From Panacagrimonas perspica (GTDB lineage: Bacteria > Pseudomonadota > Gammaproteobacteria > Nevskiales > Nevskiaceae), in assembly GCF_004364935.1 (NCBI RefSeq), contig NZ_SOBT01000008.1:248001-312000 (forward strand): a stretch of DNA of 64,000 nt. The letters run 5' to 3'. The notes beneath the pieces are model-generated. The model ran no database searches. It saw nothing but the letters and a program-made list of their open reading frames with translations, and was not told the DNA's origin. The position numbers and the translations under genes were made by a program. Positions 10,451 through 59,152 of this stretch are shown here, in pieces; positions within the stretch are counted from its first letter, which is position 1, and every line of letters begins with the position of its first letter.

Positions 10451-12613
10451 ATGGCTGAGCAGAACCTGTCTGTCCGATCCGTTGCTCCTTCCGGTAATTG
10501 GGACGCCACCGCGGAGTCGTACGCGGGGCATATCGGGTCGGGCAACCGCGTCCTGCTGTTCGCGCTGATGGTGCTCGCGGTGGGGCTGGGCTACGCCGTC
10601 GTGGCGGCACCGCTGCCGCTCGGCGCGCAGGTCCTGTTCGGCATCGTGTGCCTCGTGATCGCCATCCTTCTGAACCGGATCGAGGGGCGCCTGGTTTCGA
10701 TCGGCCTGATGGCGTTCTCGACCTTGCTCAGCGCACGCTACATCTACTGGCGCCTGACCGAGTCGCTCGACTACAGCGACCCCCGCTACAACTGGGTCGA
10801 TATCGGTTTTGCGTACGGACTGATCGCCGCCGAGCTCTACGCCTTCACGGTGCTGCTGCTCGGCTATCTGCAGACCCTGTGGCCCCTGCAGCGTCCTCCG
10901 GTGCCGATGCCGCGTGACCTCGCGATCTGGCCCACGGTCGACGTGATGATCCCGACGCTCAACGAACCTCTGGCGGTGGTCCGTCCCACCATCATCGCGG
11001 CGATGGACATGGACTGGCCGCGCGACCGCATGCGCGTCATGGTGCTGGACGATGGCGCGCGTCCCGAGATGCAGGCGCTGTGCGAGGAACTGGGAGCGCT
11101 GTACATCAGGCGCCCGAACAACCAGCACGCCAAGGCCGGCAACGTGAATCACGGTCTGGAGTATTCGTCGGCGGAGTACGTTGCGATCTTCGACTGCGAC
11201 CACGTTCCGACGCGTTCCTTCCTGCAGATCTCGATGGGCTGGTTCCTGAAGGACAGCCAGCTGTCGATGTTGCAGACGCCGCATCACTTCTTCTCGCCGG
11301 ACCCGTTCGAGCGCAACCTGGGTACGTTCCGCTCGATCCCCAATGAAGGCGAGCTGTTCTACGGTCTGCTGCAGGACGGCAACGATCTCTGGAACGCCAC
11401 TTTTTTTTGCGGATCCTGTGCGGTGCTGCGGCGCTCGGCGCTCGACCAGATCGGCGGCATCGCCGTGGAAACGGTGACCGAAGACGCGCACACCTCGCTG
11501 CGCCTGCAGCGCAAGGGCTGGAACACCGCCTACATCAATCTGCCGCAGGCGGCCGGTCGGGCCACGGAGTCGCTGGCCGCCCACATCCGGCAGCGCGTCC
11601 GCTGGGCGCGCGGCATGTCGCAGATCTTCCGCATCGACAATCCGCTGCTGGGACCGGGTCTGAGCATCGCGCAGCGGCTCTGTTATCTGAACTCGATGCT
11701 GTACTTCTTCTTCGGCCTGCCGCGCATCGTGTTCCTGACGGCGCCGCTGGCGTTCCTGCTGTTCGACGCGCAGATCATCATCGCGTCGGCGCTGGTGTTC
11801 GCGGCCTATGCGTTGCCGCACCTGATCCATTCGCAGATGACGCATTCACGATTGCAGGGGCCGTTCCGCTACTCGTTCTGGGCCGAGGTCTACGAGACGA
11901 TCCTGTGCGTGTACATCGTGCTGCCGACGTTCCTCGCGCTCATCAGTCCCAAGCTCGGCAAATTCAACGTCACAGCCAAGGGCGGCAATCGCGACCGAAG
12001 CTTCTTCGACCGCAAGATCGCGCTGCCCTACATCATCCTGCTGTTGCTCAATCTCGGCGGCTTCGGCCTGGGCCTGTGGCGCCTGTTCACCAACTTCGGT
12101 GACGACGCGGACAGCCTGGTGCTCAACCTGGTCTGGACCAGCTACAACGTCGTGATCCTCGGCGTCTGCACCGCCGTGGCCTGGGAACAGCGCGAGATCC
12201 GCCGTGCCGTGCGCGTCTCCGCGGAACTGCCGGCGCGCGTCCGTCTGCCGGACGGAACCGAGATCAGTGCCCGCACGCTCGATCTGTCGGAAGGCGGCAC
12301 GATGCTGCGGCTTCCGCGTGCGGTGAGCCTGCCGCTGGGTTCGCGGATCCAGGTGGCGCTGATTCCGGAGTTCGACCTCGTGTGGATGGATGCGGACGTC
12401 ACCCGCTCGAGCAACGAGATCCTCGCGATGAAATTCAACGCGCTCAGCCTGCCGCAGGAGCGACAGCTGATCTACGCGATTTTTGGCCGTGCCGATGCCT
12501 GGTTGCATTGGGCGGAGCGGCGACCGCCCGACAAGGTCGGAACATCATTCGGCAACCTCTTCAGGCTCGGTTTGACCGGTGCAAAGAAGATCTTTTCTCC
12601 ATCCAGGAACTGA
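10451..12613 (+). CDS. bcsA: cellulose synthase catalytic subunit BcsA (UDP-forming)
   Basis: Inner-membrane family-2 glycosyltransferase that polymerises UDP-glucose into beta-1,4-glucan and threads it through its own channel; 720 residues. Four N-terminal membrane helices (about 33-145) precede the catalytic domain. The motifs are VMVLDDGARPE (DD 200-201), DCDHVPT (248-254), FFCGSC (318-323), TEDAH (343-347) and QRVRW (381-385). More membrane helices run to about 575. The C-terminal PilZ domain keeps both c-di-GMP motifs: RRAVR (584-588, RxxxR) and DLSEGG (611-616). The enzyme should therefore need c-di-GMP. An eight-T run at 11401-11408 encodes the FF of FFCGSC. Followed 11 bp later by bcsB. 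Confidence 0.97.
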   Translation: MAEQNLSVRSVAPSGNWDATAESYAGHIGSGNRVLLFALMVLAVGLGYAVVAAPLPLGAQVLFGIVCLVIAILLNRIEGRLVSIGLMAFSTLLSARYIYWRLTESLDYSDPRYNWVDIGFAYGLIAAELYAFTVLLLGYLQTLWPLQRPPVPMPRDLAIWPTVDVMIPTLNEPLAVVRPTIIAAMDMDWPRDRMRVMVLDDGARPEMQALCEELGALYIRRPNNQHAKAGNVNHGLEYSSAEYVAIFDCDHVPTRSFLQISMGWFLKDSQLSMLQTPHHFFSPDPFERNLGTFRSIPNEGELFYGLLQDGNDLWNATFFCGSCAVLRRSALDQIGGIAVETVTEDAHTSLRLQRKGWNTAYINLPQAAGRATESLAAHIRQRVRWARGMSQIFRIDNPLLGPGLSIAQRLCYLNSMLYFFFGLPRIVFLTAPLAFLLFDAQIIIASALVFAAYALPHLIHSQMTHSRLQGPFRYSFWAEVYETILCVYIVLPTFLALISPKLGKFNVTAKGGNRDRSFFDRKIALPYIILLLLNLGGFGLGLWRLFTNFGDDADSLVLNLVWTSYNVVILGVCTAVAWEQREIRRAVRVSAELPARVRLPDGTEISARTLDLSEGGTMLRLPRAVSLPLGSRIQVALIPEFDLVWMDADVTRSSNEILAMKFNALSLPQERQLIYAIFGRADAWLHWAERRPPDKVGTSFGNLFRLGLTGAKKIFSPSRN

Positions 12614-12624
12614 CGGGCAGGATC

Positions 12625-14913
12625 ATGAAAGGGATGAACAACGGGGCGCGCAGCGCACTGTCGGTGGGCGCGGCCTCGATGCTGCTTGCGATGGTCACGG
12701 GTCTTGCAGCCTCGCAGAGCGCTTGGGCAAAGGAAGAATCGCCGGGCAGAGCCGTCGCGCTGCCTGCCGTGTCGAACGCAGGACAGGAGTCGCGGGAGAT
12801 ACCGCTCAAGGATATCGGCGCCGACGAGCCGGTGCGGCTGCGCGGCACCGAGCACCAGATCGATTTTCCGGTTGCGATCCGCAACGACGAGGTCGTGACC
12901 AAGGCGCAGCTCAAGCTGCGCTTCGCTCATTCGCCCGCGCTGATCTTCGAGTGGTCGCACCTGACCGTGCTGGTCAACAACGAGGTCGTCGGCAACGTGC
13001 CGCTGAAGGCCGAGACGGCGGACGGCGGTGAGCAGACCGTCGACATCGATCCGCGCACGCTGGTCGGATACAGCCGGCTCGGCCTGCGCGCGGTGATGCA
13101 CTACACCAAGGAGTGCGAGGACCCTGCGCACTCGACGCTGTGGTCGGTGATCGCCAACGAATCGGTGCTCGAACTGGAACTGCAGCGCGTACCGGTCACC
13201 AATGAATTGGCGCTGTTGCCCGAACCCTTTTTCGATCCGCGGGACAAGCGCGAACTGGTGCTGCCGTTCGTGCTGCCCGCCGACCCGACGCCGGAAGAAC
13301 TGCAGGCCGCGGGCATGGTGGCGTCGTGGTTCGGCGCGCTGGCCGAATACCGCGGGGCGAATTTCCCTGCGCAGCTCGGCCGCCTGCCGGCCAGCGGCAA
13401 TGCCGTGATGATCGCCACGCGTTCGCGTCTGGGCACGGCTGCCGATCTGCCCAAGGGCAACGGTGCGCAGGTCGCGATCTCCGACAACCCGACCGATCGC
13501 AACGGCAAGCTGCTGGTCGTCACCGGCGACGACGCGGCCTCGCTGCTGGCGGCGGCGCGTGCGCTGACGCTGGGGACGGCCGGGCTGTCCGGTCCGAGCG
13601 CCGGCGTGCGTGATCTCGCCGAGCCGCCGCTGCGCATTGCGTACGATGCGCCGCGCTGGGTGCCGACCGATCGTGTCGTGCAGATCGGCGAGCGGGTTGC
13701 GCCTGACCAGCTTCAGGTACGAGGCCAGTATCCGCCCGCGATCCGCGTGCCCTGGGATCTGCCGCCGGATCTCTTTTACTGGAAGAGCAAGGGCGCCAAG
13801 CTCGACGTGGGCTATCGATACACGCCGACGCAGGGCCAGAAGTCGACGCTCGACTTCGACGTCAACAACCAGTTCGCGCGCGCCGTTCCGCTGCTGATGG
13901 TCGACTCGCCGACGCCGCTGAGCGACGAGGCGAAGAAGAAGGCTGGATTGCCCGAAGTGACCAAGCGCGAGAAGTACTACGTGCCGGTCTACAAGTTCGC
14001 GTCCGACAACGAGCTCAAGTGGCAGTACAACTTCGAGATCCGCAAGAAGGGCGAGTGCCAGGACGTGCCGGACGACAATCTGCGCGGTTCGATCGACGCC
14101 GACTCGACGATCGACCTGACGTCGCTGCCGCACTACACCTATCTGCCCGATCTCAAGCTGTTCACCGACGGCGCGTTTCCGTTCAGCAAGTACGCGGATC
14201 TCGCGCAGACCGTGGCAGTGTTGCCGACCCGGCCGAGCGCCGCGGAAGTCGGCACGTTTCTCAACGTGCTGGGCCACATCGGCGACGCCACCGGATTTCC
14301 GGCGACGCGCCTGCGCGTGAGCGACGCCAGCACCGTCAAGGCCATCGGTGCCGATGCCGACCTGCTCGTGTTCGGAACGCCGGCCAGCCAGCCGCTGCTG
14401 ACGGAGTGGGCGGATCGCCTGCCGATGACCAACAAGGACGGCGGGCTGCAGCTGCAGGTCGTCGGCGCGGTCGAGCGCCTGCGCGCCCGTTTCGAAGGGC
14501 GTGATCTCGAGGGTGCCCGCGCGCACGCCACGCGCATGATCCTGGAAGCCGGCAAGGCGCTCGGCAGCCTGATGAGCTTCGAGTCGCCGCTGTCGAGCAA
14601 GCGCACCGTGGTGGTGTTCGCGGCGCTCGACGAAGCGCGCCTGCTCGAGCTGTCGCAGATGCTCGACGATCCGGCGCGTCGTCATTTCATCGGCGGCGAC
14701 CTGACTTTGCTCAACACCACCAAGGTGTCGCATTACGAGCTGGCGCCGCAGTACTCGGTAGGCAGGCTTCCGTTCTTCCTCGGCATCCGCTGGTGGTTCG
14801 CCAAGCAGCCGCTGATCCTGTCGATCGTCGCGGTCCTGCTGTCGGCGTTCCTGGCGCTGGTCCTGTACCGGCTGATGCGCAACCTCGCGCAGTCGCGGCG
14901 CGGCGGCCGCTGA
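12625..14913 (+). CDS. bcsB: cellulose synthase periplasmic subunit BcsB
   Basis: Periplasmic, membrane-anchored partner of BcsA that guides the emerging glucan; 762 residues. The ATG at 12625 follows GGCAGGA and yields a signal peptide ending in SQSAWA (cleavage near residue 35). The mature part shows BcsB features: LKDIGADEPVRLRGTEHQI (first jelly roll), AELKLRFAHSPAL-type strand, NNEVVGNVPL, and later FPATRLRVSD and ADLLVFGTP (second flavodoxin-like module). A single C-terminal helix (about 730-755, LILSIVAVLLSAFLALVLYR) anchors it beside BcsA. It follows bcsA by 11 bp and precedes bcsC by 31 bp, so the three are an operon. Confidence 0.95.
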   Translation: MKGMNNGARSALSVGAASMLLAMVTGLAASQSAWAKEESPGRAVALPAVSNAGQESREIPLKDIGADEPVRLRGTEHQIDFPVAIRNDEVVTKAQLKLRFAHSPALIFEWSHLTVLVNNEVVGNVPLKAETADGGEQTVDIDPRTLVGYSRLGLRAVMHYTKECEDPAHSTLWSVIANESVLELELQRVPVTNELALLPEPFFDPRDKRELVLPFVLPADPTPEELQAAGMVASWFGALAEYRGANFPAQLGRLPASGNAVMIATRSRLGTAADLPKGNGAQVAISDNPTDRNGKLLVVTGDDAASLLAAARALTLGTAGLSGPSAGVRDLAEPPLRIAYDAPRWVPTDRVVQIGERVAPDQLQVRGQYPPAIRVPWDLPPDLFYWKSKGAKLDVGYRYTPTQGQKSTLDFDVNNQFARAVPLLMVDSPTPLSDEAKKKAGLPEVTKREKYYVPVYKFASDNELKWQYNFEIRKKGECQDVPDDNLRGSIDADSTIDLTSLPHYTYLPDLKLFTDGAFPFSKYADLAQTVAVLPTRPSAAEVGTFLNVLGHIGDATGFPATRLRVSDASTVKAIGADADLLVFGTPASQPLLTEWADRLPMTNKDGGLQLQVVGAVERLRARFEGRDLEGARAHATRMILEAGKALGSLMSFESPLSSKRTVVVFAALDEARLLELSQMLDDPARRHFIGGDLTLLNTTKVSHYELAPQYSVGRLPFFLGIRWWFAKQPLILSIVAVLLSAFLALVLYRLMRNLAQSRRGGR

Positions 14914-14944
14914 TCGTCAGCGGCCCGGAACAAGGAAAGACCTC

Positions 14945-17900
14945 ATGCGGCTCAGACTCGGACCGACCGTATGCCTGGCACTGGCCATGGCATCGGTCAC
15001 GGGCCTCGCAGCGGACGCGGCGACGGGGCTGATCGCCTCGCAGGCGCGCTATTGGGAGCAGAAGGGGCGCCATGATCTGGCGCGCGAATCCTGGCTCAAG
15101 CTGTTGCGCGCGGACCCTGGCAGCGCCGAGGCGCTGTCGGGTCTGGCGGCGGCGGAAATCCGCAGCGGCCGGCCTGAAATGGCCAAGCAGTACATCCAGG
15201 GCCTTCGGCAACTGCAGCCGGATCATCCGGATCTGCGGCGCCTGGAAACGGCCCTTGCCACCGGCGCGGCAACGCCCGGCACAGCGTCCGACGGACTCGC
15301 CAAGGCGCGCGAACTCGCGCGCAGGCAGCAGTACGACCAGTCCATCGCGGAGTACCAGCGCCTGTTCGGCGGCAAGCCGCCCGAGGGGGCGGTCGCGCTC
15401 GAGTACTGGCAGACGCTGGGAGGTGCAGAAGGGGGTTGGGCGGAAGCGCGGACCGGCCTGGAGAAACTGGTCAAGGCGAATCCGGACAACGCCGACTACC
15501 GCCTCGCACTTGCGCAGCACCTGACGTATCGCGAAGAGACCCGGCGGCAGGGACTGGATCAACTGATCGAGCTCGCCGAGTCCGACGCGGCGCGCCAGCC
15601 GGTGCAGCCGGTGTGGCGGCAGGCGCTGCTCTGGATGGGTGGAAAGCCGCGCGACGAGCGCTATTTCCAGGCGTACCTGCGCCGCTATGGCGACGACACG
15701 CAGGTCAGCAGCAAGCTGGCGTCTGCGCGCTCCGGCACCGCAATCGCCGGTGCGACGTCCGACGCCCCGCAAGTCGATGCGCGCGGCCGTGCGCTGAAGA
15801 ATGCGTGGACGCTGTTCAACGCCGGCAATGTCGAGGAGGCGGAGAAGGCTTTCGCCTCCATGCAACGCAAGAATCCGCGGGACGCCGAGGCGCTCGCAGG
15901 CCTCGGCATCATCCGCCTGAGGCAGGATCGTTTCGCCGAATCGCGCGAACTGCTCCAGCAGGCCTCGAGGCTGTCACCGGGCCGTGCCCGGCAGTGGAGC
16001 GGGGCCCTGGCTTCCGCTCGTTTCTGGGAGCAGGTGCGGCTGGCCGACACCGATCGCGCGGCCGGGCGTCTGCCGGAGGCGGAGCGTCGCCTGCGCGCCG
16101 CCATCGCGGGTTCGCCGGAGACGGCCGCCAAGGAGCCGAGCGTTCGACTGTCGCTGGCCGACACCCTTCTCGCGCAGGGCCGTTACTCCGATGCAGAGGC
16201 GCTCTACCGCGAAGCCCTGAAGCAGGATGCCGGCAACGTGGACGCGGCGCGCGGCCTGATGGCCTCGCTCTCGCAGAGCGGACGCATCGCCGATGCCTTG
16301 CTGATCTACCGGGATCTGACGCCGGAGCAGCAGACCCGGATCGGTTCGGTCCGTTCGCTGCAGACGCTGGCCTTGCGCCAGCAGGCCGCGCAGGCCTTGG
16401 CGCACAAGGATGAATCCGGCGCCGAGCACCTGCTGCGCGAGGCGCTCGCGATGGATCCTCAGAGCACGTGGCCGCGTCTGGACCTGGCCCGGCTGTATCT
16501 GAGCCAGAACCGGCGTGCTGATGCACGCAGCCTGATCGACGCGCTGCCCACCAGCGGTCCGCAGCGCGGTGAGGCCTCGTTCATCCGTGCGCTGATGGCC
16601 TCGGAAGAACAGAACTGGTACGACGGCCTGATGTGGCTCGAGCAGGTGCCCGCGGCCGAACGCAATGCGGACATGGCGAGTGTTCAGCAGCGTCTGTGGG
16701 TCCGATACCAGACCGAGCGCGCCGCGGTGCTGGGTCGTCTCGGGCGTCACGATGAGTCGCTGGCCTTGTTGGCCGGCGTCGAGCGGTATGCGCGCTCTCC
16801 CGAATTGGTCGGCGCGGTCTCGTTTGCGTACACCGAAGCCGGAGAATCCGGGCGCGGGCTCTATCTGTTGCGCCAGGAACTGGCGCGCAATCCGGATGCG
16901 GATCCCGATCTGAAGCTCGCGTACGCCGGCATCCTGCTCAAGCTGCAGCAGCATGCGGAATTCGACGCGGTCGTCGATCAGCTGGCCCGTGGTCCGCGCC
17001 TGAGCCTGCAGCAGGAAGGCACCCTGACCGAGATGCGCATCGCGCAGCGACTGCGCCAGGCCGATGCGGTGCGCCAGAGCGGCAACGTCGCACGCGCCTA
17101 CGATCTGCTGGAACCTGCGCTGCGGGCCAACCCGGACGACCCTCGTCTGGTGATGGCGCTGGCGGCACTCTACGAGCAGGCGCGTGAACCCGATCGCGCT
17201 GTCTCGCTGTACCGCTATGCGGTGAAACTCGACGAGCGCAACCTCGATGCCTATCAGGGCGTCGTGCAGTCGAGCCTTGCGACCGGTCAGGACGACGAGG
17301 CCGATCGCTGGCTTGCGCAGGCGCTGCGCATCGCGCCCGACAGCGGCAAGCTGCACGCGCTCGCGGGCCGTGTCGCCAAGGCGCGCGGCCAAGATCGCCG
17401 TGCGCTGGCGCATTTCCGGCGCGCGCTCGAACTGGGTCCGGACGGAGGTGGCGGCGGTCACGGCGCCTTGCGCCTGCAGATGCTCGACACCTATCTGCGT
17501 CCGGTGAGCAGGGCGTCGTCTACCGCACGCACGCGGCCGTTGCATCGGTCGGTTCGCGGCGACTACTCGCTGTCCGCGCCGCGTCGCCCGGTCGTGTCCG
17601 GCAACCAGGGTTCGTTGCGCAAGGTCGCGACGAACGTGCAGGACATCGAGCTGGCGCAGGCGCAGCAGTCGACTCCGGTCTATCGGCGTGCGGAGGATCT
17701 GCCGCCGATTCCGCCGCCGGGCTACAAGCTGCCGCGCTTCGAGCCGCCGGTGAATTCGGGCGCGCTGAAGATGGACGTGCCACGCACGTTCATCCCGCCG
17801 CCGATGGGTCCCGAGCCGATGCAGCTACGCATGGACCCGACGCTGCGCACGCGCGACTACGCGAAGGAAGAGCCCGCCGTTCCGACCACCGAGACCGACC

Positions 17901-19081
17901 AGATCCTCGCGGAGATCGCGCAGATCCAGTCGAAGCGCTCGACGTGGGCAGCGGGCGGTGTGAGCTTCCGCAATCGCGATGGCGTGGCGGGGCTGGATCA
18001 GCTCGACGATTTCGAGCTGCCGGTCGAAGTGAGCCTCGCAGGCTCCGCGGGCCGCGTGAATCTGAGGCTCGTGCCGGTGTTCCTCGACGCCGGATCGGTG
18101 AAGGGCGCGCAGTTGCCGCTGTTCGGCACGCTGGCATTCGCCGACACCACCGGGCTGAGCTTCGATCAGAACGACGCGGGAATCGCGTTGGGCGGCAGCT
18201 ACCAGATCGGCAGTTTCAGCGTCGACGCCGGCTCCACGCCGATCGGTTTCGAGGTGGGCACCGTGGTCGGCGGCGTGCGCTGGGCGCCGAAGTTCGGCAA
18301 CTGGATTCTCGACATGGACGTTTCGCGTCGTCCGGTCACCGATTCGCTGCTGTCCTACGCCGGCACGCGGGATCCGGTGTCCGGTCGCGACTTCGGCGGC
18401 GTGACGGCCAACGGCGGACGTCTCGAGGTCACCTACGACATGGGCCAGGTCGGCCTGTACGCACTCGGCGGCTTCCACTTCTACGAAGGCAAGAACGTGG
18501 AGGACAACACCGCGACCGATGTGGGCGCCGGCGCCTATCTCCACGTGTACAAGGATTCACTGCAGCGCGTGACGGTGGGCGTCAACATCACCAGCTTCTT
18601 CTTCGACGAGAACCTGCGTCACTACAGCTTCGGGCACGGCGGGTATTTCAGCCCGCAGCGCTATGTTTCGTTCGGCATTCCGGTGGAATGGGTCGGCGGT
18701 CAGAACCGCTACTCGTGGAAGGTCTACGGCGCCATCGGCATCCAGAATTTCCGCGAAGACGGTGCGGCGCTGTATCCGGGCGACAGCGCGGCGCAGGCCG
18801 AGATCGAAGCGTTCGCGGCGGCCAATCCGGATCCGGTCATCGCCACCGGCTACGAGGCGAACAACAACACCGGAACGGGCATGAGCTTTGGGGGGCAACT
18901 CGAATACCTGGTGGCGCCTCATCTGGTGCTCGGGGCACGCGCGGGGTTCGACAATGCCCGTGATTACGACGAAACCCGCGTGATGGCCTATCTGCGCTGG
19001 TCGATGAGCCGCGATTACGGCGTACAGGCGCCGCCGCAGTCGGTGGTGCCGTTCTCCGACTACGGAAAGAAGCTGCCGTGA
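14945..19081 (+). CDS. bcsC: cellulose export protein BcsC (TPR scaffold plus outer-membrane barrel)
   Basis: Export channel for cellulose across periplasm and outer membrane, 1378 residues, longer than E. coli BcsC (about 1157). A good ribosome site (AAGGAAAG) precedes ATG 14945, and the first about 25 residues are a signal peptide (CLALAMASVTGLAADA). Residues about 30-860 are tandem tetratricopeptide repeats (e.g. AEALYREALKQDAGNVDAA, EHLLREALAMDPQSTWPRL). A proline-rich linker follows (about 920-960: DLPPIPPPGYKLPRFEPP, FIPPPMGPEP). The last about 370 residues form the BcsC beta-barrel domain and end near WSMSRDYGVQ. No bcsZ cellulase gene lies between bcsB and bcsC, unlike most bcs operons. 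Confidence 0.95.
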   Translation: MRLRLGPTVCLALAMASVTGLAADAATGLIASQARYWEQKGRHDLARESWLKLLRADPGSAEALSGLAAAEIRSGRPEMAKQYIQGLRQLQPDHPDLRRLETALATGAATPGTASDGLAKARELARRQQYDQSIAEYQRLFGGKPPEGAVALEYWQTLGGAEGGWAEARTGLEKLVKANPDNADYRLALAQHLTYREETRRQGLDQLIELAESDAARQPVQPVWRQALLWMGGKPRDERYFQAYLRRYGDDTQVSSKLASARSGTAIAGATSDAPQVDARGRALKNAWTLFNAGNVEEAEKAFASMQRKNPRDAEALAGLGIIRLRQDRFAESRELLQQASRLSPGRARQWSGALASARFWEQVRLADTDRAAGRLPEAERRLRAAIAGSPETAAKEPSVRLSLADTLLAQGRYSDAEALYREALKQDAGNVDAARGLMASLSQSGRIADALLIYRDLTPEQQTRIGSVRSLQTLALRQQAAQALAHKDESGAEHLLREALAMDPQSTWPRLDLARLYLSQNRRADARSLIDALPTSGPQRGEASFIRALMASEEQNWYDGLMWLEQVPAAERNADMASVQQRLWVRYQTERAAVLGRLGRHDESLALLAGVERYARSPELVGAVSFAYTEAGESGRGLYLLRQELARNPDADPDLKLAYAGILLKLQQHAEFDAVVDQLARGPRLSLQQEGTLTEMRIAQRLRQADAVRQSGNVARAYDLLEPALRANPDDPRLVMALAALYEQAREPDRAVSLYRYAVKLDERNLDAYQGVVQSSLATGQDDEADRWLAQALRIAPDSGKLHALAGRVAKARGQDRRALAHFRRALELGPDGGGGGHGALRLQMLDTYLRPVSRASSTARTRPLHRSVRGDYSLSAPRRPVVSGNQGSLRKVATNVQDIELAQAQQSTPVYRRAEDLPPIPPPGYKLPRFEPPVNSGALKMDVPRTFIPPPMGPEPMQLRMDPTLRTRDYAKEEPAVPTTETDQILAEIAQIQSKRSTWAAGGVSFRNRDGVAGLDQLDDFELPVEVSLAGSAGRVNLRLVPVFLDAGSVKGAQLPLFGTLAFADTTGLSFDQNDAGIALGGSYQIGSFSVDAGSTPIGFEVGTVVGGVRWAPKFGNWILDMDVSRRPVTDSLLSYAGTRDPVSGRDFGGVTANGGRLEVTYDMGQVGLYALGGFHFYEGKNVEDNTATDVGAGAYLHVYKDSLQRVTVGVNITSFFFDENLRHYSFGHGGYFSPQRYVSFGIPVEWVGGQNRYSWKVYGAIGIQNFREDGAALYPGDSAAQAEIEAFAAANPDPVIATGYEANNNTGTGMSFGGQLEYLVAPHLVLGARAGFDNARDYDETRVMAYLRWSMSRDYGVQAPPQSVVPFSDYGKKLP

Positions 19082-20436: not shown

Positions 20437-21303
20437 TCAGCTCGTCGCGCGATCCTGCCCGGTGTTCGTGGGGCTGTGCAGGTAGTCCGTGAGCGTCTCG
20501 GGCGACATCGCCGCGCAGAACAGATGGCCCTGCACTTCGGTGATGCCGATGGCGCGCAATGCCGCGAGCTCGGCGTCGGTCTGCACGCCCTCGGCCGTAC
20601 AGCGCAGTCCCAGGTCACGTGCGAGCTGGGCCAGCAGTCGCAGCTCCTCGATCGCGCCCGGGTTGTCGGGACTCAGACCATCGAGGAAACGGCGATCGAG
20701 CTTGAAGCCGGCCATCGACGCGCGCGCCAGCCGCGTGACCGCCGAGGGGCCCCCGCCGAAATCGTCCACTTCGACACCGATGCCCAACGCCAGCAGTTCG
20801 CCGAACGTGGAGAGCGCGAGGTGAGGCCGGTCGAGCAGGACGTCCTGCGAGATCTCGAGCGTCAGTCGGGAGGCGGGAAGATCGAGGCTCTCCAGGACGC
20901 GCTGCGTTCGAGACGCGAAGTCGGCGGCGTGGATCTGCCAGGACGCCACGTTCACGGCCAGGCGCATCGCAGGAATTCCGGCGGCTTGCCATTCGAGCAT
21001 CTGGCGCGCGGCGGTTTCGAGCAGCCAGTCGCCGACGTCGAGCGACAGGCTGGATCTTTCGAGGATCGGAATGAACTGGGCCGGATGCTGGAGGCCGCGC
21101 GTCGGGTGGTGCCAGCGCAGCAGGGCCTCGCAGGCCACCGGCGCCAGATCGTTCGCGCGCAGGATCGGCTGGTAGGCGATTTCCAGCTCGCGCGCCTCGA
21201 AGGCGGCGCGGACCGAGGCATGGCTCAGCGGCAGATCGCGGGCGGCACCCGACAGCTCCGAGGCACGTCCCTGGTAAAGCGTGGAGCCGGCGACTGGGTT
21301 CAT
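20437..21303 (-). CDS. EAL-domain c-di-GMP phosphodiesterase, probably active
   Basis: 288-residue stand-alone EAL protein that should hydrolyse c-di-GMP to pGpG; no membrane or sensor domain is visible. The signature EAL is at residues 59-61 (CEALLRWHHP). The metal and catalytic residues are present: N118 (LAVNVA), E150 (LTLEIS), D180-D181 (VDDFGGG), K201 (FKLDRRF), E238 (TAEGV) and Q258. Loop 6, normally DDFGTGYSS, reads DDFGGGPSA, which may alter dimerisation or activity. The gene lies downstream of the LuxR-type regulator, with a lux-box-like site 60-80 bases before its start. That suggests quorum control of the c-di-GMP that BcsA needs. Confidence 0.9.
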   Translation of the reverse strand: MNPVAGSTLYQGRASELSGAARDLPLSHASVRAAFEARELEIAYQPILRANDLAPVACEALLRWHHPTRGLQHPAQFIPILERSSLSLDVGDWLLETAARQMLEWQAAGIPAMRLAVNVASWQIHAADFASRTQRVLESLDLPASRLTLEISQDVLLDRPHLALSTFGELLALGIGVEVDDFGGGPSAVTRLARASMAGFKLDRRFLDGLSPDNPGAIEELRLLAQLARDLGLRCTAEGVQTDAELAALRAIGITEVQGHLFCAAMSPETLTDYLHSPTNTGQDRATS

Positions 21304-21362
21304 CGGACGAAGCGTGATGGCAGTAAAGGACCCGCAGCAAAACCCTCGCCAGGCGCGGAAGC

Positions 21363-21382
21363 TACTGTCGGATGCTACAGGT
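21363..21382 (-). promoter_or_regulatory. lux-box-like operator upstream of the EAL gene
   Basis: Read on the minus strand the site is ACCTGTAGCA-TCCGACAGTA. It matches the Vibrio fischeri lux box (ACCTGTAGGA-TCGTACAGGT) at 15 of 20 positions, including the whole left half-site ACCTGTAG and the ACAG of the right one. Its centre is about 69 bases before the EAL start codon, in the 132-bp space downstream of the LuxR-type gene. No good -10 box is visible. Confidence 0.6.
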
Positions 21383-21435
21383 GGCGCTCATCTTCATGAC
21401 GGACCTGAAGAAAGAATCGATCCCTGCCGTGCGAT

Positions 21436-22248
21436 CTACTCGTGCATCACCGGAATGGTCGTGACCGAGCGCAGGGCATGTTGGTGCAACTCGATCTCGC
21501 CCAAGGTCACCGCCCGGGAAATGATGCTGTGGCGACCGCTGACGCCGAGCTTGCGACCGGCGCTCTCGATGTGGAACAGCACGGTGCGCTCGGTGATGCC
21601 GAGCGCGCGGCCGATGTCGGCGGAGTTCTTCCCGTCGGCGGCCCACAGCAGGCAGTCCTTCTCGCGTTCCGAGAGGGGCGCCGAGACACGCGGCGCCCCC
21701 TCGTGGTTGAGGACCAGGCGGCGCACCGATTCGTGCAGCACGGTGGCGAACCAGTGGAGCCGCCCGCGCAGGCGATGCCGCGCGACCGGATCGGCGCTGA
21801 TGGGCCGGGCGATGTCGCGCGCCAGGGACAGCAGCGCCAACTCGCCATGGCGTCCGGATACCGGCGCCGAGATGCCGTGGCCCAGGCCGTAGTCGGCGGC
21901 CTCCTGGAAGAACACCTCGACGGTCGCGTCGCTGCGGTCGATGTCGTCCCAGATCAGCGGCAGCGATGAACTCATGATGTGCCGCACTACCGGATCGATG
22001 CGCAGATAACCCAGCGAGTCGTAGCGCTGCCGCCACTCGCGCGGATAGCCCGACAGGCAGAAGTGGTACGGATCGGAGAACGACAGCGGCAGCCTCACCG
22101 CGTAGAAGTAATGCTCGAAACCGAAGGATGCGGTGAGTTCCCGGCACGCAGCGTGCAGTTCAGGCGCGCCGTCGGCATTGGTCAGCGCCTCGGTGAGGTG
22201 GGCGTCGCGGGTGGCCGGGTCAGCGGTGGATGGGTCGAGATCGCGCAT
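21436..22248 (-). CDS. LuxR-type acyl-homoserine-lactone-responsive regulator (solo)
   Basis: 270-residue transcription factor. The N-terminal autoinducer-binding domain keeps the invariant ligand residues in correct spacing: W72, Y76 (YPREWRQRYDS), D85-P86 (RIDPVVRH), W100 (LPLIWDD) and a Gly in GLGHGISAP. The C-terminal helix-turn-helix (about 190-240, SEREKDCLLWAADGKNSADI) has the usual Glu, Leu and Gly. No luxI-type synthase is encoded in the window, so it is either a solo or paired elsewhere. It is followed on the same strand by the EAL gene, with a lux-box-like site between, which makes that gene the probable target. Confidence 0.9.
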   Translation of the reverse strand: MRDLDPSTADPATRDAHLTEALTNADGAPELHAACRELTASFGFEHYFYAVRLPLSFSDPYHFCLSGYPREWRQRYDSLGYLRIDPVVRHIMSSSLPLIWDDIDRSDATVEVFFQEAADYGLGHGISAPVSGRHGELALLSLARDIARPISADPVARHRLRGRLHWFATVLHESVRRLVLNHEGAPRVSAPLSEREKDCLLWAADGKNSADIGRALGITERTVLFHIESAGRKLGVSGRHSIISRAVTLGEIELHQHALRSVTTIPVMHE

Positions 22249-25278: not shown

Positions 25279-27042
25279 ATGTCGTACCGTCATATCAAGA
25301 TTCCCACGACTGGCGAGAAGATCAGCATCAAGGACGGCAAGATGGTGGTGCCCGACCAGCCGATCGTGGGCTACGTCGAAGGCGACGGCATCGGTCCCGA
25401 CATCACCAAGGCCTGCCTGCGCATCTGGGATGCGGCCGTCGACAAGGCCTACGGCGGCAAGCGCAAGATCCACTGGTGCGAAACCTATCTCGGCGAGAAG
25501 GCCGCGGGTCTCTACGATGGCAACTACTGCCCCGATGAAACGCTCAAGGTTCTGCAGGAACTCGTCGTCTCCATCAAGGGCCCGCTGACGACGCCGGTCG
25601 GCGGCGGTTTCCGCAGTCTCAACGTGGCGCTGCGCCAGGATCTCGACCTCTACGCCTGCGTGCGTCCGGTGCGTCACTACCGCGGCGTGCCGAGCCCGCT
25701 CAAGCATCCGCAGAAGGTCGACATCGTGCTGTTCCGCGAGAACACCGAGGACGTCTACGCGGGTATCGAATACAAGACCGGCACGCCCGAGAACGCGAAG
25801 ATCGCGAAGTTCCTGCGCGAGGAGATGAAGGCCAAGTTCTTCGAAGGCGCGGGCATCGGCATCAAGCCGATTTCCGAATTCGGCTCCAAGCGTCTCGTGC
25901 GCAAGGCGATCCAGTACGCCGTCGACAACGGCCGCGAATCCGTCACGTTGGTGCACAAGGGCAACATCCAGAAATTCACCGAAGGCGCGTTCCGCAACTG
26001 GGGTTACGAGGTGGCGCGCGACGAGTTCGGCAAGGTCACGATCACCGAAGAGCAGCTCTACGGCGAGTTCAAGGGCAAGCTGCCGGAAGGCAAGATCGTC
26101 ATCAAGGATCGCATCGCCGACATCATGTTCCAGATGATGCTGCTGCGGCCCGACGAGTTCGACGTCATCGCCACGACCAACCTCAACGGCGACTACCTCT
26201 CTGATGCGATTGCCGCCGAAGTCGGTGGCATGGGCATCGCGCCGGGCGCCAACATCGCCGACCACGTGGCGGTGTTCGAGGCCACGCACGGCACCGCGCC
26301 CAAGTACGCCAACCAGAACAAGGTCAACCCGGGTTCGCTGCTGTTCTCCGGCGTGATGATGCTCGAGTACATGGGCTGGAAGGAGGCGGCGGACCTGATC
26401 ACGCTCGTCTATCCGGAAGTCGTCTCCGACGGCATCGTGACCTACGACTTCGCGCGCCAGATCGACGGCGCCACCGAAGTCGGCACGTCGCAGTTCGCCG
26501 ATGCGCTGATCGAGCGCATCAAGGGCGGCGTGGACCTCGACGCCAAGCGCAAGGCGCAGCAGGAGCAGCTGGCCAAGGAGCGCAAGCAGCGCGAGATCCG
26601 GCGCCTGTTGCAGCCGCTCGAGGAGATGATCGAGTCCGGCCGCGTGCCGCACACGGTCGGCGACCTGATGACGCGCAGCCTGATCACGGCCACCGACGAC
26701 GAGACCATCGAAAGCGCGATGCACACGATGACCGACAACGGTGTCAGCTCCGTCGTCGTCGAGGCCAACGCCAAGGGCGAGTGGGGAATCCTGACGCGCC
26801 GCGACATCGTCTCCAAGATCGTGCGTGGCGGGCAGAACCCGGCGCATGTGAAGGTCAAGGACGTGGCCAGCCGTCCGATCGTGTCGGTGCCGGTCGAGAC
26901 CAGCATTCGCGAGGCCGCAAAATTGCTGTCGGAAAACAACTTCAGCCGTCTGACGGTGGAGCAGGGCGGCCGCATCATCGGCATCGTCACCGAGACCGAC
27001 ATCTTCAACGCGGCGGAGAAGTTCGGCTCGCTCGGGGACTGA
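25279..27042 (+). CDS. icd: NADP-dependent isocitrate dehydrogenase fused to a CBS-domain pair
   Basis: TCA-cycle enzyme turning isocitrate into 2-oxoglutarate. 587 residues against about 416 for ordinary Icd. Residues 1-413 are E. coli-type Icd: [28 protein letters not shown] (Ser equivalent to the AceK-phosphorylated S113), [31 protein letters not shown] and [17 protein letters not shown], whose K-Y pair indicates NADP. A basic helical linker (about 417-455, [20 protein letters not shown]) leads to two CBS motifs (about 459-515 and 525-580, each with [ML]T-x-x-DI), which usually bind adenine nucleotides. The fusion suggests allosteric control by energy state. ATG 25279 follows AGGAGA. A second, unrelated isocitrate dehydrogenase lies at 49388. 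Confidence 0.95.
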
Positions 27043-28281: not shown

Positions 28282-28731
28282 ATGAGCCAAGCCGCAGCAT
28301 CCAAGCCGGTCATCATGCTGGTCGAGGACAATCCGGCTGACCTGCGTCTGACCCAGGAGGTCTTCGAGGAAGCGGCATTCGAGCACCGTCTGCTGGTGGC
28401 GCGCGACGGCGAACAGGCCCTGGCGATGCTGCGGGGCACGCCGCCCCACGGCGACCTGCCGCTGCCCGACATCGTGCTGCTCGATCTCAACATTCCCCGC
28501 AAGAACGGCCTCGAGGTGCTGCGCACGATGAAGCAGGATCCCCGGCTGAAGCGCATTCCGGTTCTGATCCTGTCGACCTCGCGCGCCGAAACCGACTTTG
28601 CGGCCGCCTACGACGCGCACGCCAATGCCTTCGTGACCAAGCCGACCGACTGGGGCGAATTCGCCGAGCTGGCGCGGCTGATCCGCGATTTCTGGCTCAA
28701 AGTTGTGCAATTGCCGCCGGGGGTGGTGTGA
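28282..28731 (+). CDS. single-domain response regulator (Rcp1-like)
   Basis: 149-residue lone receiver domain, without an output domain, of the Rcp1 kind that usually serves phytochrome-like or similar histidine kinases. The acidic pocket is E15-D16 (MLVEDNPAD), the phospho-acceptor is D68 (IVLLDLNIPRKNG), and K120 lies in FVTKP. The ATG at 28282 follows GTGGAG at good spacing; an ATG at 28264 is a less likely start. The next gene begins 14 bp after the stop. It should take phosphate from the kinase at 29855. Confidence 0.9.
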   Translation: MSQAAASKPVIMLVEDNPADLRLTQEVFEEAAFEHRLLVARDGEQALAMLRGTPPHGDLPLPDIVLLDLNIPRKNGLEVLRTMKQDPRLKRIPVLILSTSRAETDFAAAYDAHANAFVTKPTDWGEFAELARLIRDFWLKVVQLPPGVV

Positions 28732-28745
28732 ATCGAGGTGCACCC

Positions 28746-29828
28746 ATGGGCGTCCTGTTGCTCGAGGACAGCCCCGCCGATTCGCGATTGCTGGTCGAGA
28801 GCCTGCGCGACCAGACCACATCCGGAAACCTGGTCATCCAGACCGTCCGCCGGCTGGCCGACGCGTTGCGCGAACTCAAGCGCTTCCACTTCTCCTGCGT
28901 CCTCGTCGATCTGGGGTTGCCGGATGGCGAGGGAGTGCGAAACGTCGCGCGGATCCGCGAGGCGGATCCGAACGTGGCCATCGTCGTGCTGACCGGACTG
29001 GCCGACGAGCGTGCCGCCGAAGAGGCGTTCGAACTCGGCGCCCAGGACTACCTGATCAAGGGGCAGCGGCTGGGCGACGAACTCCTGGCCTTCGTGCGGC
29101 TGGCAATCGCCAAGCGGCACAGTCAGGTGGGCGAAGCGACGACGCCCGCGGACACCGATGCCGCGGCGGCCGGCTCCGTGCTTTCGTACCAGCCCTGGGT
29201 CGATCTGAGCCGCGGAAGCTTCGGGGGTGTCCACGTCGGGCTGTCGGGCGAGATCTCTAACCTGAGCACGGCTCTCGGCGCGTTTCGCGGCTGGCACGGA
29301 CCGGGCTTCGAGGACGTGACCCTGGCGATGTCGATTCCGGCGAACTGGCTGCCGCGACTGGCCAGCCAGCTCGCCGCCCGAATGGGCCAGGCCGACGTCA
29401 AGCCGGCCAAGGTCGCCTTGCGGCTCGAGGCCAGCGAAATCGGCATCGAGCCTTCGATGGTGGACAACCTGCGCACCTTGCGCGCAACCGGCACGCAGAT
29501 CTGGCTCGAAGGCTGGCGCCCTGCCACGGCGCTGCTCGAGCGGCTCGTCGAGCTCCCGCTCGACGGCATCGTCATCGATGCCCGCGCCGTGGACGCCATC
29601 ACCCGCGACGCGCAGGAGCCTGCACTGCGGTTCGTGCGAGCCACGCTGGCCCTCGGCGGCGCGCTGGGGCTGGACGTGATCGCAGACGGTGTGGCGCTCG
29701 CCGAGCAGCACTCGCGCCTGTTCATGGTCGGTTGCACGCAGATGCAGGGGGCACGTTTCTGCCAGCCCGAACCGGCCGAAGAGTTGCCCGCGCGCTGGCG
29801 CAAGGGCGCGTGGGGACTGGAGCGATAG
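28746..29828 (+). CDS. receiver domain fused to a degenerate EAL domain
   Basis: 360-residue two-domain signalling protein. Residues 1-110 form a complete receiver (VLLLEDSPAD, D55 in LVDLGLPDGEG, K105 in YLIKG). Residues about 140-345 have an EAL-domain fold, but the catalytic motifs are lost: the EAL triad is replaced (HVGLSG), DDFG is absent, and the usual AEG reads IADGVA, while MQGARFCQP still matches the C-terminal QGYxxxxP. It should therefore not degrade c-di-GMP but may bind it, or a protein, in a phosphorylation-dependent way. ATG 28746 is preferred over a GTG at 28728 that overlaps the previous stop. The kinase gene follows after 26 bp. Confidence 0.85.
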   Translation: MGVLLLEDSPADSRLLVESLRDQTTSGNLVIQTVRRLADALRELKRFHFSCVLVDLGLPDGEGVRNVARIREADPNVAIVVLTGLADERAAEEAFELGAQDYLIKGQRLGDELLAFVRLAIAKRHSQVGEATTPADTDAAAAGSVLSYQPWVDLSRGSFGGVHVGLSGEISNLSTALGAFRGWHGPGFEDVTLAMSIPANWLPRLASQLAARMGQADVKPAKVALRLEASEIGIEPSMVDNLRTLRATGTQIWLEGWRPATALLERLVELPLDGIVIDARAVDAITRDAQEPALRFVRATLALGGALGLDVIADGVALAEQHSRLFMVGCTQMQGARFCQPEPAEELPARWRKGAWGLER

Positions 29829-29854
29829 GGCCCATCCCGGCTCGAGGAGAAAAG

Positions 29855-31075
29855 ATGCCCGATTTCCTGTTGCAGGCGGTTGATCTCTTGCCCACGGGCG
29901 GCAGCCTGCTGCCGCACGGCTACTGCTTCATGCGCAAGCCGGATCTGATCTGGCTGCACGTGATCAGCGACGGCGTGATCGCGCTCGCGTATTTCATGAT
30001 CCCGGTGGTGCTGGTCTATTTCATCCGTCGCATGCGCGCGCGGATCAGCTTCAACTGGGCGATCGCGCTGTTCGCGTCGTTCATCGTGCTCTGCGGCACC
30101 GGCCATATTCTCGACATCGTCGTCATCTGGAAGCCGATCTACTATCTGCAGGGCTGGGTGCGCGCGCTGACGGCGGTGGTGTCGCTGGCCACGGCGCTGG
30201 CCATCGTGCCGCTGGTTCCCAAGCTGCTGTCGATGAAGACGCCGGACGAACTCGAGGAAGCCAACGCCAAGCTGCGCGCCGAAGTCATCGCGCGCGAAGC
30301 CGCCGAAGAAGATCTGCGACGTTCGCTGGCCGATCTGAGCCGCGCGGTGCACGAGCTCGAGCAGTTCGCGTACATCACCTCGCATGACCTTCAGGCGCCG
30401 CTGCGCAACATCGCGGGCTTCTCGCAGCTGCTGTCGCGCCGCTACACGCAGAAGCTGGACGGCGACGCGCTGGAGTTCCTGCAGTTCATCGAGCAGGGTG
30501 TGCGCCAGATGCAGGCCTTGATCAAGGATCTGCTGCTGTTGTCGCGCGTGGGTCGTACCGAGGCCCGTGCCGAACGCCGGCCGCTCGACGAGGCGCTGCG
30601 CACGGCGCTCAATACGCTCAGGCCGGACATCACCGCGCGCGGTGCCAATGTGGTGTTCGATCCGATGCCTGACGTGCCCGCGGTGCAGTCGCTGCTGGTC
30701 CAGCTGTTCCAGAACCTGGTAGGCAACGCGATCAAGTTCCACAAGCCGGATGCCCATCCCGAAGTACACGTCGGCTGCCAGCGCGAAGAGCGGTTCGTGC
30801 ATCTGACCGTGAAGGACAACGGCATCGGCGTCGCCTCCGACCAGCTCGAAAACATCTTCGCCGTGTTCCGCCGGCTGCACAGTGCCGATGAATACGAGGG
30901 CACGGGCATTGGCTTGGCCATCTGCCGGAAGATCGTGCAACACCATCGCGGCGAGATCTGGGCCGAGTCCGACGGCAGCGGCACGACCATCCACGTTCGC
31001 CTGCCGCTCGAAGAGCCGGCGCCGGTGCGCCTGACCGACGGCGTCGTGCCGCTGGCGCGGCCGCTGCCGGTCTGA
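29855..31075 (+). CDS. sensor histidine kinase with ethylene-receptor-type membrane domain
   Basis: 406 residues, inner membrane. Three N-terminal helices (about 33-57, 67-90, 100-125) match the ethylene-binding domain of ETR1 and cyanobacterial SynEtr1. D39 and Y46 (SDGVIALAYFMIP) sit seven apart, as do ETR1 D25 and Y32. C80 and H84 (FIVLCGTGH) reproduce the copper ligands C65 and H69. A coiled coil (about 130-170) leads to HisKA with H177 (YITSHDLQAPLRN), then a HATPase with N box (QNLVGNAIKFH), G1 (DNGIG) and G2 (EGTGIGL). AGGAGA at 29845 supports the start. Third in an operon with the receiver and receiver-EAL genes. Ethylene is the likely but unproven ligand; binding of another small olefin is possible. 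Confidence 0.9.
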   Translation: MPDFLLQAVDLLPTGGSLLPHGYCFMRKPDLIWLHVISDGVIALAYFMIPVVLVYFIRRMRARISFNWAIALFASFIVLCGTGHILDIVVIWKPIYYLQGWVRALTAVVSLATALAIVPLVPKLLSMKTPDELEEANAKLRAEVIAREAAEEDLRRSLADLSRAVHELEQFAYITSHDLQAPLRNIAGFSQLLSRRYTQKLDGDALEFLQFIEQGVRQMQALIKDLLLLSRVGRTEARAERRPLDEALRTALNTLRPDITARGANVVFDPMPDVPAVQSLLVQLFQNLVGNAIKFHKPDAHPEVHVGCQREERFVHLTVKDNGIGVASDQLENIFAVFRRLHSADEYEGTGIGLAICRKIVQHHRGEIWAESDGSGTTIHVRLPLEEPAPVRLTDGVVPLARPLPV

Positions 31076-31085: not shown

Positions 31086-31538
31086 ATGGGCTTGGTCATC
31101 GACCGCGAGGTGGACGTCGCCGCTCCCGCGCAAATCGTGTGGCAGGTGATCACCGACCTGCCGGCCTATGGGCAATGGAACACCTTCGTCCCGGAGTGCC
31201 GTTCGACGTTGCGGCCCGGCGATCCGATCGAGATGCAGGTCCGCCTGGGCCAGGCGTTGAGCCGTCAGGTGGAGTGGATGACCACATACGACGAGGGCAC
31301 CGGTTTTTCCTACCGGATGAAGCCCGTGCCGCTCGGCGCCCTGTGGAGTGCACGCGTCCATCGCATCGAGTCTCTGGGCGACGAGCGCTGTCGCTACCAC
31401 ACGCATTTCGAGCTCAACGGCTGGTTGTCCGGCCTGGTGCGCGCGCTGATGCGATCGAAGCTCGAGCAGGGTTTTTCGGCGATGACGCGGGGCATCCAGC
31501 AGCGCGCCGAACAGCTCCGGTCCGCGCAGCGGCCCTGA
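31086..31538 (+). CDS. SRPBCC (START/polyketide-cyclase-like) domain protein
   Basis: 150-residue soluble helix-grip protein that probably binds a hydrophobic small molecule. It begins with the typical first strand and helix (IDREVDVAAPAQIVWQVITD, LPAYGQWNTFVPEC) and ends with the long C-terminal helix (LVRALMRSKLEQGFSAMTRG). It begins 10 bp after the kinase and its stop overlaps a possible start of the CoA-transferase, so it may bridge both transcription units. Neither substrate nor activity can be read from sequence. Confidence 0.85.
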   Translation: MGLVIDREVDVAAPAQIVWQVITDLPAYGQWNTFVPECRSTLRPGDPIEMQVRLGQALSRQVEWMTTYDEGTGFSYRMKPVPLGALWSARVHRIESLGDERCRYHTHFELNGWLSGLVRALMRSKLEQGFSAMTRGIQQRAEQLRSAQRP

Positions 31539-49387: not shown

Positions 49388-51625
<2,238 letters not shown>

Positions 51626-54878: not shown

Positions 54879-56021
54879 TCAGATGGTCGTCGTCGCTTCG
54901 CTCTTGCTTGTCGCGAAGAAGCGGTCCATGAACAGCGACTGCTCCGACAGGCCCTTGGCCTGCAGCAGCCGCGCTACCGCGTCGCACATCGGCGGCGCGC
55001 CGCACAGGTAGGCGTCGCAGAGATGCGCCTGCTCCTGCACGCCGCGCTGGATCGCCTGCGTGACGTTGCCGCGCTCGCCGGTCCAGGGATCGTTCGCATC
55101 GATACCATCGAGCGTCGGCACGAACTTCGATCCGGGCGCGAGGCCGTTCGCGAACAGCGCTGCGATCTCGGCGTGGTGCGGGACGTCGGCCGCGCTGCGG
55201 GCGCCGTAGTAGAAGAGGAAGGGGCGGGGATCCTTCGTCTCCGCGGCCTCGTGCAGCATCGACAGGATCGGCGCGATGCCTGACCCGATCGCGCACATCA
55301 GCACCGGACGATCGCCGGCGCGCAGGTAGCCGTCGCCGTAGGGGCCGCGCAGGCGCACCGCTGCGCCGGGCGAAACGTCACCCACGCGTGACGAGAACGC
55401 GCCGCCGGCGATGCGCTTGATGACGAACGACAGTTCGAAGCGACTCGAAGGTGGTGTTGCGATCGAATAGCTGCGCCAGATGGCGTCGACGGGCTCGGCG
55501 CCACCCGTAGCCCGGACGAAGTCCGGGAGTCCCGCTCCGGTTGAGGAGCCCTCCCGGACTTCGTCCGGGCTACGGTGGTGTCGCAGCCCCAGATCCACGA
55601 ACTGTCCGGCGTAGAAATCCAGAGGCTCATCGAGCGTAAGGCGCAGCTCGACAAGTTCGGGCGTCAGCGAGCGCACGCCGGCAATCCTCGCGTCGATCTC
55701 GCGTGGCGGCAGCAGCGGCCTGACGCGCAGGTCGGGCGGGCGGTTGTCGCGGATCAGCAGGTCGGTCAGCGGCCGCGCACGGCAGAGCAATCCCCAGCCC
55801 TCGTCTCGCTCCGCGTCGGGCAACGAATAGACCGACACGTCGCCGTGATCGATCTCGCCGTCCTCGATCTGGAACTTGCAGGTGGAGCACTTGCCCGCGC
55901 GGCAGCCGTAGCGGATCTGCACGCCCTGGCGCAGCGCGGCGTCGAGTACGGTCTCGCCAGGCGAGACGTCGAACGTTTCTCCGGACGGAGTGAACTCGAC
56001 GTTGAACGTCGCGCCACTCAT
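54879..56021 (-). CDS. diiron monooxygenase reductase ([2Fe-2S]/FAD/NADH)
   Basis: 380-residue electron-transfer component that passes NADH electrons to the diiron hydroxylase. The N-terminal plant-type ferredoxin has ligands C40, C45, C48 and C80 (YGCRAGKCSTCK ... LLCRA). The FAD domain has RSYS (183-186) and RLRGPYGDGYL, and the NAD domain GSGIAPILSML (246-256) and LCGAPPMCDAV near the end. Residues about 148-173 are not part of the usual fold: they are encoded by a type A palindromic element inserted in frame between FVDLGL and the RSYS strand. It follows the coupling-protein gene by 43 bp. Confidence 0.92.
   Translation of the reverse strand: MSGATFNVEFTPSGETFDVSPGETVLDAALRQGVQIRYGCRAGKCSTCKFQIEDGEIDHGDVSVYSLPDAERDEGWGLLCRARPLTDLLIRDNRPPDLRVRPLLPPREIDARIAGVRSLTPELVELRLTLDEPLDFYAGQFVDLGLRHHRSPDEVREGSSTGAGLPDFVRATGGAEPVDAIWRSYSIATPPSSRFELSFVIKRIAGGAFSSRVGDVSPGAAVRLRGPYGDGYLRAGDRPVLMCAIGSGIAPILSMLHEAAETKDPRPFLFYYGARSAADVPHHAEIAALFANGLAPGSKFVPTLDGIDANDPWTGERGNVTQAIQRGVQEQAHLCDAYLCGAPPMCDAVARLLQAKGLSEQSLFMDRFFATSKSEATTTI
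55504..55576. repeat. type A palindromic element, copy 5, inside the reductase coding sequence
   Basis: Arms 55506-55529 (starts CGTAGCCCGGACGAAGTCCG) and 55551-55574 are perfect 24-bp complements. The same element stands between genes elsewhere (48686, 37057, 61943). Here it is translated in frame on the minus strand as part of the reductase (SPDEVREG ... LPDFVRATGG) without a stop codon. Confidence 0.9.
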
Positions 56022-59134: not shown

Positions 59135-59152
59135 AGCGCGGGTTCGTGCGCC

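Follow-up and report, generated by a model that had tools for sequence, protein, structure and literature searches.

Described ethylene receptors and the locus under study

AzoEtr1 of Azospirillum brasilense binds ethylene according to the accessible part of PMC11819568, so a proteobacterial ethylene-receptor kinase is not new. The same part of PMC11819568 reports that ethylene lowers c-di-GMP in Azospirillum and gives no link from the receptor to this effect. The receptor analyzed here lies in a 64,000-nucleotide stretch of the Panacagrimonas perspica genome (the window) and shares several features with the AzoEtr1-AzoRR pair: (i) a proteobacterial ethylene-binding domain joined to a kinase, (ii) an adjoining single receiver without an output domain, and (iii) the seven binding residues. 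As far as the available description goes, AzoEtr1 contains a PAS domain and has one response regulator downstream, whereas the window receptor has no PAS domain and is preceded by two response regulators, the latter belonging to the REC-(GGDEF)-EAL kind. Synechocystis has a functional ethylene receptor kinase, SynEtr1 (slr1212), which is likewise accompanied by a response regulator. SynEtr1 is bifunctional for light, and its regulator drives a small RNA (accessible part of PMC11819568); the output encoded in the window differs.

Three further systems resemble individual components of the locus. The Pseudomonas putida regulator CfcR (REC-GGDEF-EAL), which in the available part of its literature requires a partner kinase for its cyclase function, is similar in make-up to the middle gene of related loci, a plausible cyclase, whereas the window copy lacks the GGDEF domain. 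RocR of Pseudomonas aeruginosa (PDB 3sy8) shares the REC-EAL layout, but the window protein lacks the EAL catalytic residues. In comparison with the Rcp1-type phytochrome pairs, the first response regulator (REC1) is near Rcp1/RcpA and the kinase is near bacteriophytochrome kinases; the input is a bilin domain in those pairs and an ethylene-binding domain in the window.

Arabidopsis ETR1 has the same seven binding residues and an acidic-basic pair, the Asp and Lys of which we take to be residues 25 and 91; the ETR1 letters and the list of the seven residues are likewise our working assumption, their number being given as seven in PMC11819568. Unlike ETR1, the window receptor has neither a GAF domain nor a fused receiver, has Arg instead of Lys at position 91, and carries a PHGxC motif at the N-terminal place where plant ETR1 has Cys-x-Cys. 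The window gene appears to encode a genuine bacterial ethylene receptor kinase, ordinary in kind and unusual in its setting.

Sensor, kinase and response regulators

The features of the locus are collected in the table below. The Pfam ETR1_N match (121.5 bits; curated cut-off, 27 bits) and the alignment to ETR1 agree with the original prediction that D39, Y46, C80 and H84 stand at the copper and ethylene positions of ETR1: all seven binding residues are kept, D39, Y46, I49, P50, I77, C80 and H84 corresponding to ETR1 D25, Y32, I35, P36, I62, C65 and H69, respectively. The ETR1 spacing that had been claimed for these residues holds from D to Y (7) and from C to H (4), but the distance from Y to C is 34 residues instead of 33. 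Three long helices are predicted by AlphaFold at residues 29-60, 66-90 and 94-126 with low confidence (block means of pLDDT, 45-73). In the structural comparison with ETR1, the membrane part is of low confidence, the 50 Foldseek matches listed are kinases, kinase complexes or hybrid regulators, and neither sequence nor profile search found an ethylene-binding domain in PDB.

Table. Features of the receptor locus and of the monooxygenase cluster (window positions)
Feature	Position	Strand	Evidence
REC1, single-domain Rcp1-type (phytochrome-partner) response regulator	28282..28731	+	Pfam Response_reg, 71.4 bits
REC-EAL*, receiver with degenerate, N-terminally shortened EAL, no GGDEF	28728..29828	+	Pfam Response_reg, 63.6 bits; EAL, 60.6 bits
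GAGGAG, probable ribosome-binding site for the receptor kinase	29844..29849	+	sequence, 5' of ATG
Ethylene-receptor-type histidine kinase gene	29855..31075	+	ATG 29855, stop 31075; 406 aa
Pro-His-Gly-Tyr-Cys (P20-C24), HxxC motif directly before the first helix	29912..29926	+	outside the Pfam match
Ethylene-binding domain, residues 31-127, three predicted helices	29945..30235	+	PF25487; alignments; model
D39 (ETR1 D25)	29969..29971	+	alignment
Y46 (ETR1 Y32)	29990..29992	+	alignment
C80 (ETR1 C65, copper ligand)	30092..30094	+	alignment
H84 (ETR1 H69, copper ligand)	30104..30106	+	alignment
R103, aligned with ETR1 K91 (the suggested counterpart of D25)	30161..30163	+	alignment
HisKA, residues 168-232; phospho-acceptor H177 at 30383-30385	30356..30550	+	Pfam; H177 invariant in 20 aligned rows
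HATPase_c, residues 278-386	30686..31012	+	Pfam
SRPBCC-type protein, 10 nt 3' of the receptor	31086..31538	+	Pfam Polyketide_cyc2, 55.2 bits
Diiron monooxygenase cluster, two Phenol_Hydrox subunits and reductase	54879-59158	-	profile matches

The HisKA-HATPase part is complete, as had been claimed: both Pfam domains were matched, and the H, N, G1 and G2 motifs are intact (H177 in SHDLQAPLR, N287/N291, D321-NGIG and GTGIGL, respectively). The key residues are invariant across 20 aligned rows, which cover all but two of the family's 22 kinase-type proteins and include the window. By sequence, the best PDB match of the kinase is 8f71, the kinase domain of the bacteriophytochrome RpBphP2; the top structural matches among the 50 listed by Foldseek are HK853 and ZraS. 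These alignments support a copper site of the ethylene-receptor type, complete in its known binding residues, on an intact kinase.

Two features were outside the original prediction, namely the two response regulators directly upstream and a family-wide tie to domains of c-di-GMP signaling, by which biofilms are controlled. REC1 and REC-EAL* precede the receptor on the same strand, in this order; the two genes overlap by 4 nt, provided that GTG 28728 is the start, and the receptor starts 26 nt past REC-EAL*. REC1 contains the phospho-acceptor D68, the acid pair E15/D16, T99 and K120, D68 and K120 being invariant in 12 aligned rows, window included. Its top PDB match is 5te9 (136.7 bits; generic name only), followed by RCP1, 1i3c (127 bits), and 1k68 (124 bits); the match to 1i3c spans residues 6-146, as in an Rcp1/RcpA-type receiver over its full length.

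In REC-EAL*, the EAL match begins at position 71 of the Pfam profile. When the protein was aligned and scored at what we take to be the catalytic positions of EAL domains, also used for its relatives, the EAL, Asn, Asp-Asp, Lys and EGVE positions were found to be lost. Thus, the catalytic residues of a RocR-type phosphodiesterase are absent from REC-EAL*, and the GGDEF domain of a CfcR-type cyclase was found by Pfam neither in the window nor in the middle gene of a congener (L068). The AlphaFold model of the protein has a pLDDT of 85, and its nearest fold in the Foldseek search is RocR 3sy8. The SRPBCC gene downstream adjoins the receptor in the congener as well (L068 5308-5763) and is perhaps on the receptor's transcript.

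Constraint on the locus was estimated from one species pair, the window and one congener, by a simple counting method. The resulting dN/dS values are 0.036 for REC1, which is 97% identical between the two congeners, 0.044 for the phospho-acceptor region (DHp) of the kinase, 0.08 for the receiver of the middle gene, 0.139 for the sensor domain, 0.197 for the CA domain, and 0.368 for the EAL* part. The phosphorelay parts are under the tightest constraint; the EAL part is relaxed yet not free.

The reading that we favor, and regard as fairly probable, is a membrane receptor for ethylene, akin to ETR1, SynEtr1 and AzoEtr1, which acts as a true two-component kinase and whose ancestral c-di-GMP arm has been disarmed in the genus. 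The three-helix domain, judging from its residues, would hold Cu(I) via C80 and H84 and bind ethylene. Binding would be felt by the D39-R103 pair and would alter kinase output; a decrease is probable, in line with the proposals for known receptors. Operon structure and constraint suggest that phosphate passes from H177 to REC1 and to the receiver of REC-EAL*. The second regulator of Hydrocarboniphaga, of Solimonas and of certain other members of the order has an intact GGDEF motif and should make c-di-GMP. In the genus of the window, this regulator has lost its cyclase domain and the catalytic residues of its EAL domain; REC-EAL* would then be limited to a role in binding or as a partner of other proteins.

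Receptor loci of the family and their c-di-GMP domains

ETR1_N has a single copy in the 5.4-Mb genome and is absent from 14 of 14 control genomes. Within the family, 45 of 58 genomes carry it, including two of three in the window's genus; the third, G030 (90% complete, 480 contigs), is one of the 13 family genomes without a match. The view that a heterotrophic proteobacterial host is unusual is not supported, given the ethylene binding of AzoEtr1 and the presence of the domain in 55 of 85 genomes of the order, family included. Matches over the cut-off were obtained for 12 of 369 genomes in the class sample and 28 of 398 in the phylum sample; in another family in which the domain occurs, it is present in 29 of 149 genomes. 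A scan of named genomes with a narrower alignment gave 30 loci. In that scan, the closest domain is from a metagenome-assembled Panacagrimonas (90% over 97 residues), followed by those of Hydrocarboniphaga, Solimonas, Stagnimonas and Nevskia.

We compared 50 receptor loci of the family, comprising the window and 49 stretches of at most 14 kb around other receptors (51 family matches minus the window and one contig-edge fragment). The receptor is of the kinase type (EBD-HisKA-HATPase) in 22 loci, and these 22 proteins form one supported set on the domain tree (SH-aLRT 98). REC1 is upstream in all 22 loci and the middle gene in 17; since the remaining five (L080, L082, L084, L086 and L087) lack it, the middle gene is dispensable. 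It encodes REC-GGDEF-EAL in 15 of the 17 loci (nine called with Pfam, six with profiles built from Pfam-marked stretches), the exceptions being the window and L068, where GGDEF is absent. In one of the six profile-called loci, of Nevskia type (L066 7551-9291, minus strand), the middle gene is seemingly broken into two frames, which is either further decay or an assembly error.

The GGDEF motif is intact in 8 of the 15 family middle genes that have the domain, as well as in three aligned relatives from the order (L121, L122 and L124); it is eroded in seven family genes (e.g., GGGEF, ARGEF, DSQQF) and absent in two. At least one of the usual EAL catalytic positions, presumed as above, is missing from the alignment in all 18 rows listed of 20. 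With an intact GGDEF motif and an incomplete EAL part, the respective middle genes should therefore encode cyclases rather than phosphodiesterases, and the window form would be neither.

In 26 of the other 28 loci, the sensor domain is fused to GGDEF, with PAS and/or GAF between them, and three of these proteins also contain EAL; 11 fusions were identified with Pfam and the rest with purpose-built profiles. The two remaining loci are L106, which is split before GGDEF, and L104, which ends in HATPase. The GG[DE]EF motif is kept in all 34 fused proteins (26 in the family, 8 outside). Altogether, GGDEF or EAL is present in the receptor or in a same-strand neighbor in 44 of the 50 family loci (the window and L068 by EAL alone), in 6 of 10 loci elsewhere in the order, and in 8 of 37 loci of other groups, a number of them on contigs of insufficient length to include neighbors. 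In L117, from another family, EBD-HK, REC and REC-GGDEF lie in a row.

The two classes of receptors differ at the acidic-basic pair. All 22 kinase-type domains have Asp at the position of ETR1 residue 25 and Lys or Arg at 91. Among the other 28 domains, six keep Asp25, and 22 have His (9), Asn (7), Ser (4), Glu (1) or Gln (1) instead; 20 of the 26 GGDEF fusions have lost it. Tyr32, Pro36, Cys65 and His69 are kept in these 28 domains, save for L108, in which Tyr32 and Cys65 are changed. Swapping Asp is not needed for fusion, since 12 of 35 GGDEF-linked receptors (L106 counted with the fusions) keep Asp and Lys/Arg. According to the accessible part of a 2026 review (PMC13012798), the change of Asp to Asn in ETR1 reduces affinity about 100-fold, and this Asp is believed to form a bridge with a conserved Lys; the available part of PMC12643061 places the copper site at Asp25, Cys65 and His69.

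The two positions tend to change together: of 114 domains, 83 have Asp with a basic partner, 3 Asp with another residue, 7 another residue with a basic partner, and 21 neither (Fisher p 4e-14 as a raw count). On the domain tree, which was built quickly from 90 columns and leaves open 62 of its 110 inner branches, five independent pairs lie on supported branches, the partner changing the same way in 1.7 (average), the opposite way in 0, and showing no difference in 3.3. With five such pairs, the coupling cannot reach 0.05 on the tree; we treat it as a lead that is not significant there.

For the family as a whole (Hydrocarboniphaga, Solimonas, Nevskia, Stagnimonas and Panacagrimonas), we tentatively suggest, with somewhat less than even confidence, that ethylene is mainly an input to c-di-GMP signaling, realized in two builds, a kinase with REC-GGDEF-EAL and a GGDEF fusion. 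Most fusions would be re-tuned by replacement of Asp25 with His, Asn or Ser, the basic residue at 91 being lost as well in most cases. Those with Asn might sense ethylene at low affinity, and those with His might use it as a third ligand to copper and detect a different gas. The operon of the window would represent an advanced stage, the c-di-GMP arm of the kinase build having been disarmed.

In the literature searched, no description of ETR1_N-GGDEF fusions was found at the level of titles and abstracts, and the literature matches listed did not contain the term 'ethylene receptor' with these genera. We do not claim the fusions as unreported, because the sources were available mostly as titles and abstracts, and the accessible part of a 2020 review ascribes a wide range of outputs to proteobacterial members. 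A cyanobacterial receptor gene was reported as grouped with a diguanylate cyclase gene (PMC6682694, accessible part). As far as these searches reach, the lineage-wide pairing of receptor and c-di-GMP domains and its step-wise loss towards the genus of the window are new. The lineage offers a receptor-to-c-di-GMP link that is directly testable, since it is present both in gene order and in single polypeptides. In addition, the receptors vary naturally in the presence of Asp25, of its basic partner and of the cyclase motif, and they form a ready series for learning how the copper site sets affinity and output.

Alternative readings of the sensor and neighboring genes

The copper ligands C80 and H84 would also be kept in a copper or redox sensor, in which the occupancy by Cu(I) itself, not ethylene, sets kinase activity. 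Evidence that bears on this reading comes from the HxxC motif. PHGxC precedes the first helix in most bacterial domains, and HxxC is present in 102 of 113 domains with enough N-terminus, L057 counting with or without it depending on the number of residues read. The motif may touch or deliver copper. It tends to vanish along with the ligands: in the raw count, it is missing from 4 of 105 domains that have both C65 and H69 and from 7 of the 8 others. This association is inflated by relatedness, and on the tree it is suggestive but not significant (four independent pairs, p 0.125 at best). In a second set of 13 rows from another family, where HxxC is rarer in degenerate domains, it is absent from 4 of 8 domains that have both ligands (L180, L183, L184 and L186), which speaks against a tight link. 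Since D39, Y46, I49, P50 and I77, which are needed for ethylene beyond the metal ligands, are all kept as well, we consider a copper sensor unlikely.

Some members of the family may not bind ethylene, because two kinase-type receptors, L076 (6751-8019) and L081 (5851-7119), have Tyr for His69 and Ser for the cysteine of PHGxC. Their operon is still present, and they are candidates for receptors that no longer need copper. ETR1_N-like domains without one or both copper ligands were also observed in other groups (L054, L055, L137, L138, L187, L189 and L190).

A further alternative is a different small ligand connected with the use of hydrocarbons, such as CO, propene, isoprene or some other olefin. 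Diiron monooxygenase subunits give ten matches in the genome, one pair of them in the window at 56.4-59.2 kb, and the original prediction had connected the receptor with alkene/alkane monooxygenases. This connection found no support in the family: among 58 genomes, soluble diiron monooxygenase was found in 13 of 45 with a receptor and in 6 of 13 without (Fisher p 0.32), and for the kinase type in 10 of 22 versus 9 of 36 (p 0.15). The binding residues, moreover, are those of bona fide ethylene receptors, and another ligand seems quite improbable to us. Very improbable is a relic whose sensor function decays alongside a middle gene that is stripped of catalytic parts here and missing from 5 of 22 kinase-type loci, with H69Y in two relatives, since the low dN/dS of sensor (0.139) and DHp (0.044), the near-identity of REC1 in the two congeners and the complete set of binding residues all oppose it.

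Other genes of the window are related to c-di-GMP. A cellulose synthase operon (10451-19081, plus strand) encodes a GT2 protein with PilZ (BcsA-like), BcsB (658.6 bits) and BcsC (BCSC_C, 341 bits). At 20437-22248 on the minus strand, a stand-alone EAL protein (20437-21303, 180.5 bits) with the EAL and DDFG motifs present adjoins a LuxR-type autoinducer-binding regulator. The operon and the EAL gene lie 7-18 kb upstream of REC1; it is our conjecture that the cellulose synthase operon, 9 kb or more from the receptor operon, is a possible c-di-GMP target. In Komagataeibacter, ethylene raises cellulose, and the accessible part of PMC4686702 indicates no receptor reported there by 2015. Finally, an isocitrate dehydrogenase domain (Iso_dh, 280.9 bits) is followed in frame by a CBS pair (90.6 bits) at 25279-27042 on the plus strand, and a second, monomeric isocitrate dehydrogenase is encoded at 49388-51625; the fusion with CBS looks unusual.
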